From contig DASRFG010000023.1 in NCBI GenBank assembly GCA_035651655.1, forward strand, positions 310,001 through 374,000: a DNA stretch of 64,000 nucleotides, in the 5' to 3' direction. Position numbers and translations under genes: made by a program. This document shows, piece after piece, positions 31,825-46,793 of the stretch (within the stretch, counting starts at the first letter, position 1; each line of letters begins with the position of its first letter). Under the pieces are notes generated by a model. It was given only the letters and a program-made list of their open reading frames with translations, searched no databases and was not told the DNA's origin. The stretch is from Terriglobales bacterium (lineage in GTDB: Bacteria; Acidobacteriota; Terriglobia; Terriglobales; Acidobacteriaceae).

Positions 31825-32364
31825 CTACTGCAGGACGTGGGAATGAACCTCGCAAACCGAACGTAGCTCGGTTGGATCGGATAATACGGCGCGAGGATAG
31901 GCGCAATGCAGGTTGAAGGTGCTACCCGCAAGGGCGGAATTCCAGATGTCTTCAAGGGCCAGGGCTGCCTCCTTTTGACCGCCGTTCCAGAGAACCGCGA
32001 CCATCTCGCCAAACACGGTGAGGCCCTGATTCTTGCTCTTAGCGCGAGCGCGAGCATCTTCTAACACTGTCCCAAGGCTGGTGGAAAACCGCGTCGCGTC
32101 AGGAAACCCGTCGAGCATGAAAGTGGCCAATGTCTCGGCGGCGTCTAGCATGATGTAGCGTTGCTCGAGCGCCGCACTGCATACGTCAATACCGGCGTTT
32201 TCGAGTTCGGCAAGCAGCCGAATGCGGTGATCTCCCGTCGCGACGACGAGAACAGCATCGCCCAGGCGAAGGCTCGTCGAAACGATGGCACAGAGGCGGG
32301 TGATCAGGTCCACTTCGTGTTCGTACACGTGAACCGAGTGGACAGGCGGCAGGTGGCTCGGCAT
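31825..32364 (-). CDS. MEDS-domain sensor protein, cysteine form
   Basis: A 179-residue single-domain protein of the MEDS type (the sensory domain named after methanogens and the methylotroph regulator DcmR). It begins near VHSVHVYEHEVDLITRLCA and contains GDAVLVVATGDHRIRLLAEL, QGLTVFGEMVAVLW and the terminal strand FNLHCAYPRAVL with C154. Start at ATG 32364 is supported by GAGGTGAGG. A longer frame exists to 32439. It follows a pseudo-receiver gene on the same strand by 52 nt. A second MEDS gene on the opposite strand has TGA at what I take to be the position of C154. It presumably reports a small-molecule or redox signal to the neighbouring kinase. Confidence 0.82.
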   Translation of the reverse strand: MPSHLPPVHSVHVYEHEVDLITRLCAIVSTSLRLGDAVLVVATGDHRIRLLAELENAGIDVCSAALEQRYIMLDAAETLATFMLDGFPDATRFSTSLGTVLEDARARAKSKNQGLTVFGEMVAVLWNGGQKEAALALEDIWNSALAGSTFNLHCAYPRAVLSDPTELRSVCEVHSHVLQ

Positions 32365-32416
32365 CTCCTCACCTCGTATCCAAATAGCATACCGCATTCC
32401 GCTGTCTCTCTCGCGG

Positions 32417-32821
32417 CTAAGGCGATTTTTTTCGGACAAGCGCTATTGGGGTGGACTGACCGACTGCACGGCGACGTTCAGCGGCGGGGTCGATCAGGAA
32501 AGCGAGGCTCCGTAGGAGTTCGGCCGGATCGCCAGGGTCAAGATACCGATCGACTTCTTTCAGGGGCGACTCGTGAGGGTGGGTGAGCGCTATGACGGGC
32601 ACTCCAGGGTTCTTCTCGCGAAAGCATCGGATGAGATCCAGTTTGTCCTCTTGCGGAATGCTGTGGCCGAGGACGAAAAGATCGAACCCGCCGGCTTGGC
32701 AAGCCTCGGCGCCGCGATGGAACCCCAGGGCGGAGACAACGTCATGACCCTTGCCGGTGAGCAAAAGCTCGCGCGTTCGCAAGAGCGTCGTGTCATAGGA
32801 GATAGAGAGAATACGGGCCAC
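32417..32821 (-). CDS. Receiver-like domain protein lacking the phospho-acceptor Asp
   Basis: A 134-residue single-domain protein with the CheY-like order of strands and helices (VARILSISYDTTLLRTRELL, GFDLFVLGHSIPQEDKLDLI, VPVIALTHPH, RYLDPGDPAELLRSLAFL). The position of the phosphorylated Asp is Gly (FVLGHSIP), and the Lys of the last loop is not evident. It is therefore a pseudo-receiver, probably a binding platform. Start is GTG 32821, with CGAGG 8 nt upstream. It precedes the cysteine-form MEDS gene and is divergent from the MEDS/kinase/regulator operon across 257 bp, so both units may share control. Confidence 0.75.
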   Translation of the reverse strand: MARILSISYDTTLLRTRELLLTGKGHDVVSALGFHRGAEACQAGGFDLFVLGHSIPQEDKLDLIRCFREKNPGVPVIALTHPHESPLKEVDRYLDPGDPAELLRSLAFLIDPAAERRRAVGQSTPIALVRKKSP

Positions 32822-33078
32822 CGTCCATGCCTCGGCAGACGGATGACATGTTAGCCTAAGTTGGCGGAGAGTGAAAAGCGCCTTGCTGCGCATCGCAGGC
32901 GCAACAGTTCGAGAGTGGTAAAGGAAAAGAGCGGCAACGGCCCTCCGCTCCGTAACTGACAGAATCGCCGATATTAATGCGCCGAGCAGCCGATCTGGCT
33001 ATTGTTGCATCCCACGGGGAGGGTGAAGTGTGCCTTGTGGATTCCCCAGAGTCGAAAATTTCAGCGAGGTGCAATGTG

Positions 33079-33726
33079 ATGACTGCGGAACAGCCGATCC
33101 ATTTCGCCAGTGCGACGCTCGGTAGGCAACGCCACATATGCGCCTTCTTCCATTCTCCGGAGGAGGAGTACCGCGTTCTGTTGCCATTCATTCGAGAAGG
33201 CATTGAACGAGGCGAGAAGGCATTTCACATCGTGGATCCACGTCTGATCGACGATCATCTCGCTCGACTGCGTGAGGCCGGTATCGATGCCGATGGCGCA
33301 CGATCGCGTGGTCAACTCCTGGTGAAGCGCTGGCAAGACGCCTATCTGCGTGATGGTCACTTTGATCAAGATCGAATGCTGGCTTTGATCGAGGAGGTTC
33401 TGTCGGCGGGACCGGCAGAGGGCTACACTCTCACTCGCCTGGTCGCGCATATGGAATGGGCGCTCGAAGATTTTCCCGGCGTCGACGACCTCGTGGAATA
33501 CGAAACGCGGCTGAATTTTGTCTTACCCAAGTACAATGATCCCGTTATATGAACGTATGACTGCGCCAAGTTTGGCGCTGGGATCGCAATGGACATTTTG
33601 CGGACGCATCCGATGGTGATTCTTGGAGGCGTCCTGCAACGGAATCCGTTCTTCGTACCGCCCGCCGAGTTCCTCGCGGAGCTCCGAGAGCGCGGGGCGT
33701 ACACAGTGTCACGCGCAATTGCTTGA
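33079..33726 (+). CDS. MEDS-domain sensor with in-frame TGA, candidate selenoprotein
   Basis: A frame of 216 codons interrupted only by TGA at 33550-33552 (codon 158). The part before it is a MEDS domain (RHICAFFHSPEEEYRVLLPF, GEKAFHIVDPRLIDDHLARL, MEWALEDFPG, YETRLNFVLPKYNDPVI). The part after it continues the same domain: TYDCAKFGAGIAMDILRTHP and VILGGVLQRNPFFVPPAEFL. From memory of the family, that strand reads VxCxYD, so TGA stands at the conserved Cys. C162 follows as U-x3-C. A hairpin lies 16 nt after the TGA. ATG 33079 has a GAGGTG site. The final TGA overlaps the kinase TTG start by 4 nt, so ending at 33552 would uncouple the kinase. The alternative is a nonsense mutation. Confidence 0.75.
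33563..33578 (+). promoter_or_regulatory. Candidate bacterial SECIS hairpin in the MEDS gene
   Basis: GCGCCA-AGTT-TGGCGC forms a perfect 6-bp GC-rich stem with an AGTT loop. The loop starts after 16 nt counted from the TGA at 33550-33552. The loop has G in its second position followed by U, as in the well-studied fdhF SECIS loop, and the distance is at the lower limit described for bacterial SECIS elements. After a T-T mismatch the stem can extend by one C-G pair. Confidence 0.58.
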
Positions 33727-35726
33727 GGTCACATTTCGACGTGCAAGAGCACGATACTGAAATCCGGGAGCTACGCCGCCTCATCCGTGATCTGGTTGCG
33801 CTTGCCACCACACCAGCCGGCTGGGTCGGTCGCGATCTAATACAAATCGCCGACGGAATTGCCGACACTCTGCTGCACACATTACGCGCCGAAGCTGTAT
33901 ATGTCGGGCTCTATTCCGGGAACGTTACAGAGAGCCTTCGAGCCGCGAAATATCCCGGTTTCAAAGGCGAAGCCGAGCGGCTGCGAGCCGAAGCTGGCAA
34001 CGCAGCGCTTTTTGTCGGGAGCGCCGGGTTACCGGACTGGCCGTCGCAATTACGAGTGGCGCTTTGCCCGATTGGGCTTTCGACCGACGAGGGTTTTGTC
34101 GCGGTCGCACGTTCGAATCGGAGTTTCCCAAGCGAAACGGATGGCCTGCTTCTGTCAGTTGCGGCGAACCAAGGCGCCGTGGCGGTGCAGACCGCACGCC
34201 TGCGATCGAAAGCCGAGTTTGAGCGCGGCCGTGTCGAAGAACTACTCGCACAGGCTCCTGCTGCGATTGGGCTGACGAGCGGACCTCAACATCGTTGGGT
34301 GTACGTCAACGAACAGTATGTCCGCCTAACGGGACGGAGCAGCTCTTCCGATTTCCTCGGAAAAACGGTACTGGAAAGTTTGCCGGAGATCGAGACACAG
34401 CCATTTGTCTCACTTCTCGACGAGGTCTTCCGAACCGGTGAATCCTACGTCGGTCGCGGCGCCCGCGCAGTTCTTAACCGCGCACATACGGGTCAACCAG
34501 AAGAAGCCTATTTCGATTTTGTTTATCAGCCGGTGAAGAAGGCGGCAGGAACCGTCGATGGCGTTCTCGTCCATGCCATGGAAGTCACTGACGCAGTGAA
34601 AGCAAGAGAAGCGCTGGAGACGACGCTCGTTGCTTCCCAGCGACTAGCAGCGATTGTCGACTCATCCGACGATGCCATCGTCAGCAAGAATCTGAAAGGC
34701 ATTGTCAGCAGCTGGAATCCAGCAGCAGAACGAATTTTCGGCTACTCGGCCGAAGAGATGGTCGGTCGGTCGATCAGAAGAATCATTCCTCCCGAGTTGC
34801 AGGACGACGAGGACGAGATATTAGCGGCGATCGGCAAAGGTGAAAGAATCGAGCACTTTGAAACCGTCCGCCTTACCAAGGCGGGTGAACGCATTGACGT
34901 GTCGCTCACGATCTCGCCCGTGCGGGACGAAAAAGGCAACATTATTGGCGCAGCTAAGATCGCGCGCGAGATCACTCATCAAAAACGAGCCGAACAAGCT
35001 CTCCGAACAGCCGAGCGACTCGCTTCCGTCGGGCGCCTGGCCGCTACAGTCGCCCACGAAATCAACAACCCGCTTGAGGCAGTCACGAATCTTGTTTACC
35101 TGGCCAAGGACCGTGCGGACCGTAGTGACGTCCGGGAGTTCCTTGGCGCAGTCGAGGACGAACTGGACCGTATTTCCCATCTCACCAAACAAACTTTGGG
35201 GTTTTACCGTGAGACGACGACTCCTACCCTGTTGAGTGTCGGATCGCTTATCGACCCGCTCGTATCCGTGTTCGCGACTCGTGCAGGAAACAAAGGCGTC
35301 ATGATTCGGCCCGAGATTCGCGATGATGGCGACATTTGCGCTGTACCAGGCGAAATGCGCCAACTCATCGCCAATCTGTTAAGCAACAGCATCGACGCTG
35401 TTGATCAGGGTGGAGTTGTGCGCATCAGGTTGAACACATTGGATGGCGCTTCCACCGCACGCAAAATCCGAATTACGGTGGCCGATAATGGTCCGGGAAT
35501 CCCTCCGGAACTTCGGTCGCGACTGTTCGAACCATTCTTTACCACGAAGAGAGAGGTTGGAACCGGTCTGGGGCTGTGGATCTGCAAGAATATTGTTGAG
35601 AAACACCACGGTTCAATTCGGATGAAGAGTAGCACGCGGCATGGACACAGCTGGACTGTTTTTTCGATTGTTCTGCCGTCGCTCGAACGACCTGCCGTGC
35701 AGGAAACCCTGAGACAGGCTGTATGA
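33723..35726 (+). CDS. Sensor histidine kinase (GAF-PAS-PAS-HisKA-HATPase)
   Basis: A soluble kinase of up to 667 residues with no membrane segment. A short N-terminal helix (EIRELRRLIRDLVAL) precedes a GAF domain (about 30-165), a first PAS (about 175-295, WVYVNEQYVRLTGRSS), a second PAS (about 305-425, SWNPAAERIFGYSAEEMVGR), a HisKA domain with phospho-accepting H445 in VAHEINNPLEAV, and an HATPase domain with N-box LLSNSIDAV, G1 DNGPGIPPE and G2 GTGLGLWICKNI. The TTG at 33723 overlaps the MEDS stop (TTGA). GTG 33741 with GAGGT upstream is an equally good start. It shares ATGA with the regulator gene. It probably relays the MEDS signal. Confidence 0.9.
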   Translation: MRSHFDVQEHDTEIRELRRLIRDLVALATTPAGWVGRDLIQIADGIADTLLHTLRAEAVYVGLYSGNVTESLRAAKYPGFKGEAERLRAEAGNAALFVGSAGLPDWPSQLRVALCPIGLSTDEGFVAVARSNRSFPSETDGLLLSVAANQGAVAVQTARLRSKAEFERGRVEELLAQAPAAIGLTSGPQHRWVYVNEQYVRLTGRSSSSDFLGKTVLESLPEIETQPFVSLLDEVFRTGESYVGRGARAVLNRAHTGQPEEAYFDFVYQPVKKAAGTVDGVLVHAMEVTDAVKAREALETTLVASQRLAAIVDSSDDAIVSKNLKGIVSSWNPAAERIFGYSAEEMVGRSIRRIIPPELQDDEDEILAAIGKGERIEHFETVRLTKAGERIDVSLTISPVRDEKGNIIGAAKIAREITHQKRAEQALRTAERLASVGRLAATVAHEINNPLEAVTNLVYLAKDRADRSDVREFLGAVEDELDRISHLTKQTLGFYRETTTPTLLSVGSLIDPLVSVFATRAGNKGVMIRPEIRDDGDICAVPGEMRQLIANLLSNSIDAVDQGGVVRIRLNTLDGASTARKIRITVADNGPGIPPELRSRLFEPFFTTKREVGTGLGLWICKNIVEKHHGSIRMKSSTRHGHSWTVFSIVLPSLERPAVQETLRQAV

Positions 35727-36154
35727 CAGAAAATGGCGCAACAAACACTTCGAACCGGGACCTGCGCCAACGGTACGTGCTGGTCGTCGATGACGAAAAA
35801 CGTATCGCAGACACGTTAACCGCCATTCTTGAGTCCAAAGGCTATGAATCCAGGGCAACCTACGACGGTGCAACTGCTCTCGAGACATGTCACGCACGCA
35901 TCCCAGACCTCCTCATTACGGACGTTGTCATGCCCGGCATGAGCGGAATCGAGTTGGGAATCGCCGTGAAACGAGAATACTCAACGTGCCGCGTATTACT
36001 TTTTTCCGGGCAGGCAGCTACTGCGCAGATGCTGCAAGATGCGGAAGCACGCGGCCATCGATTTGAGTTGCTGGCAAAGCCGGTACACCCAAGTGTGTTG
36101 CTGGAAAGGGTCGAGCAACTCATCGGAGCCGGTGTCGGATCGTGGCCTAAGTGA
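35723..36154 (+). CDS. Single-domain response regulator
   Basis: A 143-residue receiver domain without output domain. The acidic pocket is D23-D24-E25 in VVDDEKR, the phospho-acceptor is D67 in LLITDVVMPG, the Ser of LLFSGQA and the Lys of LLAKPVHP complete the active site, so it should be phosphorylated, presumably by the kinase whose gene it overlaps by 4 nt. Lacking a DNA-binding part, it may act by protein contact or pass phosphate on. It is the last gene of the MEDS operon. 169 bp separate it from the aminotransferase gene. Confidence 0.9.
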   Translation: MTENGATNTSNRDLRQRYVLVVDDEKRIADTLTAILESKGYESRATYDGATALETCHARIPDLLITDVVMPGMSGIELGIAVKREYSTCRVLLFSGQAATAQMLQDAEARGHRFELLAKPVHPSVLLERVEQLIGAGVGSWPK

Positions 36155-46426: not shown

Positions 46427-46792
46427 GGGGGCGTCACGGCTTCGACGGGGATGCTTGCGGCCAAGAGGCATGCCGGGGGGCACACACCCGTAATCGCGTG
46501 CAAAACTAGAAATGCCAATCAACAGATGGCATACGCTGCTTAATTAGTTAAGTAGCCGCTCTCCGCCGCTTTGCCCGTGGGCTGCGGAAGGGCGTCGCAC
46601 AGCGGGCTGGCTTGCGCGGCTACGTCTGGGCCGCGCGGGCGAGATCCACAGGCTAGCGACTCGCGTTTCTTGTCGGTCCTGAGCGCGCGTCGCGAACGTT
46701 CCCGGGTAATTCCGGGAGCATGGACTCGACTACGCATGTAGTCTCTTGACCAGTAACATCTTCGGACGCGGGTTCGACTCCCGCCGCCTCCA
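46427..46792 (+). ncRNA. ssrA: tmRNA
   Basis: The 5' end GGGGGCGTCACGGCTTCGAC and the 3' end GTTCGACTCCCGCCGCCTCC form the tRNA-like domain. GGGGGCG (46427-46433) pairs with CGCCTCC (46785-46791) with the characteristic third-position G-U. The tag frame is GCC AAT CAA CAG ATG GCA TAC GCT GCT TAA at 46514-46543, encoding ANQQMAYAA, an alanine-ended degradation tag. Pseudoknot-like GC-rich segments fill the rest. tmRNA rescues stalled ribosomes with SmpB. Unlike most, no CCA is encoded here (A then CAC). A second copy of the last bases at 49039 does carry CCA, showing that the original 3' end was displaced by an insertion. Confidence 0.95.
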
Positions 46793-46793
46793 C
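46773..46793 (+). repeat. Left direct repeat (att-like) in the tmRNA 3' end
   Basis: A 21-bp sequence beginning TTCGACTCCCGCC and ending CCTCCAC, covering the T-arm and acceptor 3' strand of ssrA. It recurs exactly at 49039-49059. The tmRNA 3' end is a classic target of tyrosine-recombinase elements. Confidence 0.88.

Follow-up and report, generated by a model that had tools for sequence, protein, structure and literature searches.

The closest described relatives of the protein reported here are the MEDS domain proteins (Pfam PF14417), whose predicted family role, according to extracts from PMC11507031, is the sensing of simple hydrocarbon derivatives. The same extracts state that the mycobacterial pair EtnR1/EtnR2 specifically detects epoxide, and excerpted text of PMC8784404 presents both proteins as likely regulators of alkene oxidation. 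In Mycolicibacterium chubuense NBB4 the EtnR2 gene (MYCCH_RS29050) is situated 10 nt before that of its partner EtnR1. EtnR2 is, like our protein, a stand-alone MEDS protein, with which it shares 35% identity, and it keeps residues corresponding to H19, C21, C158 and H177. It differs in carrying Cys and not selenocysteine (Sec) at position 158, and in the annotation of EtnR1 as a helix-turn-helix protein and not as a histidine kinase. In the literature, as far as its accessible parts go, no sensing residue of MEDS was found named. Regarding selenoproteins, a 2026 review (PMC13188914) lists 119 prokaryotic families or subfamilies, most of which resemble redox enzymes while others belong to metal handling and transport, as given in the sections available, and its table holds one putative regulatory family, FmdB. 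The terms MEDS, DcmR, sensor, histidine kinase and signal transduction are absent from the main text of that review, and the available portions of the deep-Sep paper (PMC12013277) make no mention of MEDS.

The window, i.e. the whole stretch of DNA that was analysed, comprises 64,000 nucleotides of a Terriglobales bacterium (contig DASRFG010000023.1, positions 310,001 to 374,000). As the sequence-only reading had claimed, it contains an open frame of 215 residues beginning with ATG and interrupted by a single in-frame TGA at codon 158 (Table 1). The PF14417 profile matches residues 18-178 with an E of 1.3e-42 and a score of 145.8 bits (curated cut-off 29.8), covers profile positions 1-161 of 161 and spans the TGA uninterrupted, and comparison with homologues confirmed that the residues situated 3' of the TGA are conserved MEDS sequence. 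The sole NCBIfam model found for the protein was an RsbA anti-sigma model, below its cut-off. A search of the whole genome located MEDS sequence in two places, namely this gene, with one TGA inside, and a paralogue at 31825-32439.

Table 1. Coordinates of the predicted features in the window, with the basis of each assignment.
Feature	Position	Strand	Basis
Sec-containing MEDS protein gene, predicted (215 residues; stop TGA 33724-33726)	33079..33726	+	frame, profile, homologue codons
H19-x-C21 motif codons	33133..33141	+	invariant in 32 aligned homologues; C21 missing in window paralogue
Codon 158 TGA, predicted selenocysteine	33550..33552	+	77 homologous sequences compared
SECIS-like hairpin GCGCCA-AGUU-UGGCGC; loop 33569-33572	33563..33578	+	14-nt identity, synonymous constraint, hairpin test
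R175-T-H177-P178 motif codons	33601..33612	+	R175, H177, P178 invariant in 32
PAS histidine kinase (HisKA, HATPase_c), probable partner	33723..35726	+	profiles; order kept in TGA-form loci
Response regulator receiver protein, probable output	35723..36154	+	ORF list, profile

Homologous sequences were collected from genome contigs and from whole-genome searches of relatives, of the phylum, of two orders and of the class, and many of them come from metagenome-assembled genomes. From the tblastn matches with E up to 1e-20 that cover position 158, six duplicates were dropped (83 to 77), and the remaining 77 distinct sequences include some second copies from one locus or genome. Codon 158 is TGA in 21, TGC in 38 and TGT in 18 of these, and no other codon was found; the expectation that the family holds Cys here is thus correct for 56 of the 77, all the others having TGA. 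Less similar rows (E up to 1e-3) likewise have only TGA, TGC or TGT, so that every homologue covering the codon has one of the three. In the scan of genome contigs with peptide patterns one of the six patterns covers codon 158 as Cys, which leans slightly against the detection of TGA forms. Plasmids were searched as well; homologues were found there only below 60% identity, and residue 158 of plasmid homologues was inspected in three loci.

The MEDS gene is patchily distributed. In the class draw 25 of 399 genomes match it at E 1e-40 or better, six of the 25 with the TGA form, and in the phylum draw the same holds for nine of 396 genomes, four of them with the TGA form. The TGA forms are found mainly in Acidobacteriota, and the others in contigs labelled Rokuibacteriota, Deltaproteobacteria and Betaproteobacteria; these labels are the records' own, and mis-binning may be behind them. 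In a tree built without column 158, from 73 of the 77 rows and with a bootstrap that had not settled, the Sec/Cys states require six changes (five to six in the bootstrap trees), at least two of which are forced by starred branches. Because of these changes residue 158 has probably been exchanged between Sec and Cys more than once. In one genome (G579) the TGA form and the Cys form of the gene coexist (L095 and L111), and the two may therefore differ in role.

Sequence downstream of the TGA has the characteristics of translated sequence. In all 20 TGA genes whose end was available 53-59 codons follow the TGA before the frame closes, the 21st gene being cut off by the edge of its own contig; frame-breaking changes, which would have spoken against the sequence-only reading, were absent from these 20. 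In 19 of the 20 a possible start of the next long open reading frame lies between -68 and +14 nt from the stop, and in L032 no next long open reading frame was found up to the contig edge. The dN after the TGA is lower than the dS in all 12 pairs for which it was computed (for example dN 0.0 and dS 0.88 between L003 and L004), the most distant pairs giving little information since dS is saturated over part of the gene.

A SECIS-like hairpin follows the TGA. The sequence-only reading had put a hairpin with an AGTT loop 16 nt after the TGA; such a hairpin is there, but its stem starts after 10 nt and it is the loop that starts after 16. The stem has 6 bp and the energy is -9.5. Twenty of the 21 TGA genes share the 14 nt CGCCAAGTTTGGCG letter for letter, and the exception, L086, has the hairpin GCACCA-GUU-UGGUGC, shifted by one base and still with GU in the loop. 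We took as reference for the geometry the bSECIS model as quoted in available sections of PMC13188914, at the lower edge of which a spacing of 16 nt is located; each of the 21 TGA genes has a hairpin at a spacing of 16-17 nt with a G within the first two positions of the loop. Over codons 162-167 the TGA genes reach a synonymous codon identity of 0.934, which is the maximum among 200 windows (mean 0.528, sd 0.104); the Cys genes reach 0.432 there (mean 0.441). An energy of the bare hairpin of -7.5 or lower was obtained for 16 of the 21 TGA genes, the other five having weaker hairpins, versus one of 46 Cys genes (46 rows of at least 48% identity served as the Cys set in this test and in the synonymous one). 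With the same threshold the window had no hairpin after any of its 26 open stretches that end in TGA and span 200 codons or more, although many of these may not be genes, and the positive control, SelD, had one in four of five genomes.

Taken by itself the window hairpin is unremarkable in single-sequence folding (z -0.75 and z -1.98), and 174 of 5000 synonymous recodings equalled it (33 of 5000 for L023). Covariation was not above that of shuffled alignments: 86.6% of cells are paired while the shuffled mean is 84.3%, and 58 of 500 shuffles are as high, which is a consequence of the hairpin being nearly invariant; versions of the hairpin slid along the alignment pair in 40-54% of cells. The case for a functional hairpin is made by the synonymous constraint and by the specificity for TGA over Cys genes; the SECIS search proposed earlier did yield a SECIS-like element conserved specifically in the TGA genes. 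Two Cys genes have a near-intact hairpin, one (L112/L046) with C in place of the loop G and the other (L059, where the alignment breaks near residue 109) with one stem base altered. To judge from these sequences, both are likely former Sec genes that have decayed.

The machinery needed for the insertion of Sec, for which a search of the same genome had been suggested, was found: tRNA-Sec (anticodon tca), SelA, SelB and SelD are present in the genome of the window and also in G004, G059, G006 and G031. SelD has an in-frame TGA in all five genomes; the context is KAAG*ASKLSP throughout, the fifth genome differing from the other four in its flanks, and the hairpin of SelD has an energy of -9.4 or lower in four genomes and of -5.5 in one. 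The SelD of the window's own genome (L083) has its TGA in KAAG*ASKLSP and is thus itself a selenoprotein. Of the TGA-form genomes tested 14 are distinct, G801 and G391, with the same places, being counted once; SelA was above its cut-off in all 14 and in nine of the 13 genomes entered for the Cys form; in the remaining four (G159, G802, G804 and G808), some of which may be incomplete, it was not above the cut-off.

These data point to UGA158 being decoded as Sec and to the gene encoding a selenoprotein, to which we assign a probability of about 0.93; codon 158 in the homologues, the sel genes, the hairpin and the open frame all support the proposal of a new Sec-containing MEDS family. If the TGA were an ordinary stop or came from a sequencing error, the gene would end at codon 157, as standard annotation would have it, and would be a truncated pseudogene or an artefact. 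This is hardly credible and we rejected it, since 21 distinct sequences, which come from many assemblies, all have TGA at this codon, the frame after it stays open with dN below dS, and the hairpin is under synonymous constraint. A reading of UGA158 by another amino acid (near-cognate decoding as Trp or Cys, for example), or a regulated stop, both without selenium, would fit the overlap with the kinase gene, but it is very improbable, considering that the alternatives in homologues are only Cys codons, as in the classic Sec/Cys exchange, that the SECIS-like hairpin is specific to the TGA genes, and that SelA accompanied the TGA form in each genome tested.

As to the protein, its AlphaFold2 model has a mean pLDDT of 91.3. 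A Foldseek search with this model gave FlaH (E 1.7e-6), and a VIA comparison with KaiC gave Z 15.0 over 178 residues with an rmsd of 3.4; the predicted fold is KaiC/FlaH-like. By sequence, the MEDS profile had no match below E 0.01 among solved structures; the best was KaiC at 0.02. The Walker A P-loop has the motif GxxxxGKT/S. It is absent after the first core strand (19-24), where the sequence is HSPEEEY, and the label iKaiC, given to MEDS in the accessible part of PMC5847659, agrees with a predicted fold without P-loop. Residues H19, C21, F37, G41, F95, D96, R120, W127, E142, C/U158, R175, H177, P178, G184 and N189 do not vary among 32 aligned homologues. A set of eight, which is wider in range and takes in EtnR2 and the paralogue from the window, keeps H19, C158 and H177 but not C21. 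Sec/Cys158 and the two His, together with E142, N146 and Y160, are thus the polar, potentially reactive residues whose conservation goes deepest in these sets. C21 and residue 158 are each third in a predicted strand (19-24 and 156-161). In the usual strand order of the KaiC-like fold these two strands are neighbours. A pairing of C21 with U158 may thus be considered, although C21 is absent from the window paralogue.

The gene immediately downstream encodes a histidine kinase (HisKA and HATPase_c) in ten of ten loci scanned, i.e. in the window and in nine of nine other TGA-form loci, the scan of the latter having taken in nine of 11 complete downstream open reading frames. The input domains of these kinases vary (PAS, GAF) while the adjoining MEDS gene is constant. 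In the window the receiver gene overlaps the kinase gene by 4 nt, and the same overlap, which the sequence-only reading had put between the MEDS stop and the kinase start, holds if the putative start TTG 33723 is the one used by the kinase. The conserved gene order suggests that the MEDS protein likely acts in trans on the adjoining kinase. Upstream there is a divergent pair of genes (31825-32893, minus strand) encoding a weak receiver-domain protein and the Cys-form MEDS paralogue (PF14417, same strand), which the sequence-only reading had also recognized; it is about 640 bp away, has LHCAYP at the position equivalent to residue 158 and is devoid of C21. L037 has a comparable Cys MEDS-like stretch, which lies roughly 1 kb upstream of its TGA gene and on the opposite strand. 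Elsewhere the window contains a tmRNA gene (46427-46793) with the tag peptide ANQQMAYAA.

We propose the following mechanism. UGA158 would be decoded by tRNA-Sec(UCA) and SelB, guided by the hairpin with its loop 16 nt downstream, and Sec158 would be placed in the predicted strand 156-161 of a KaiC-like domain without P-loop, where the MEDS homologues found otherwise have Cys. The MEDS protein would serve in trans as the input module to the histidine kinase whose gene directly follows, and Sec158 (Cys158 in the Cys forms) would react with the signal, possibly an electrophile, an oxidant or a metal, Sec making the residue more reactive than Cys would; modification or oxidation of residue 158 would then alter the action of MEDS on the kinase. 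Epoxides and dihalomethanes react with thiols. This reactivity and the detection of epoxide by EtnR1/EtnR2 are why we take residue 158 as the reactive one. That it reacts with the signal and that MEDS is the kinase's input is a tentative view, to which we give slightly less than an even chance. The UGA lies 171 nt 5' of the overlapping kinase start, and a more elaborate version can therefore be proposed, in which Sec158 is a covalent electrophile or redox switch over the two-component kinase and selenium supply also sets kinase expression via translational coupling; we consider this version unlikely.

Two other views of residue 158 accept the selenoprotein. In one it is a metal ligand, or has a structural or catalytic role, and the protein is not the sensor of the kinase, which is a serious possibility even if we would not bet on it. 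The conserved H19, C21, C/U158 and H177 could bind a metal, and many selenoproteins have metal links according to accessible sections of PMC13188914; the conserved position of MEDS before the kinase gene and the precedent of EtnR2 speak for the sensor instead, and C21 is not universal. The other view, put forward in the sequence-only reading, is that the switch is a selenenylsulfide between Sec158 and Cys162. It is improbable, and as a family feature we rejected it: TGC stands at codon 162 in the window gene and three near relatives, but the other 17 of the 21 TGA genes have Leu there, and since TGC at this codon gives the hairpin stem one more G-C pair, Cys162 may follow from the RNA.

If the sensor reading is true, Sec in a stand-alone two-component sensor extends the use of selenium to signal perception, and residue 158, be it Cys or Sec, is marked as a likely functional residue of MEDS. 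The repeated exchange of Sec and Cys offers natural pairs for asking why selenium is used. Standard annotation cuts such a gene at codon 157, and therefore other genes of this kind are probably mis-annotated. Among the papers listed in our literature search none concerns a Sec-containing MEDS protein or histidine kinase, and no earlier report of selenium in a signal-sensing domain was found; most subscription papers were outside its scope, and an unseen report is possible.

From the comparison with known systems it can be concluded that the gene shares with known bacterial selenoproteins, e.g. SelD, the Sec/Cys exchange, a hairpin shortly past the UGA and the accompanying sel genes. It differs from the catalogued ones in its family, given that no MEDS protein is among the 119 families of PMC13188914, which is in agreement with the earlier statement that no described MEDS selenoprotein is known. 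The predicted fold is shared with the KaiC/FlaH ATPases, from which MEDS differs by an identity of only about 10% and by having no P-loop. With the PF14417 MEDS proteins (DcmR, methanogen kinases) it is alike in profile family, in the Cys/Sec position and in the links to two-component systems, and what sets it apart from MEDS domain proteins is that residue 158 is, as predicted for 21 of the 77 sequences, Sec and not Cys.
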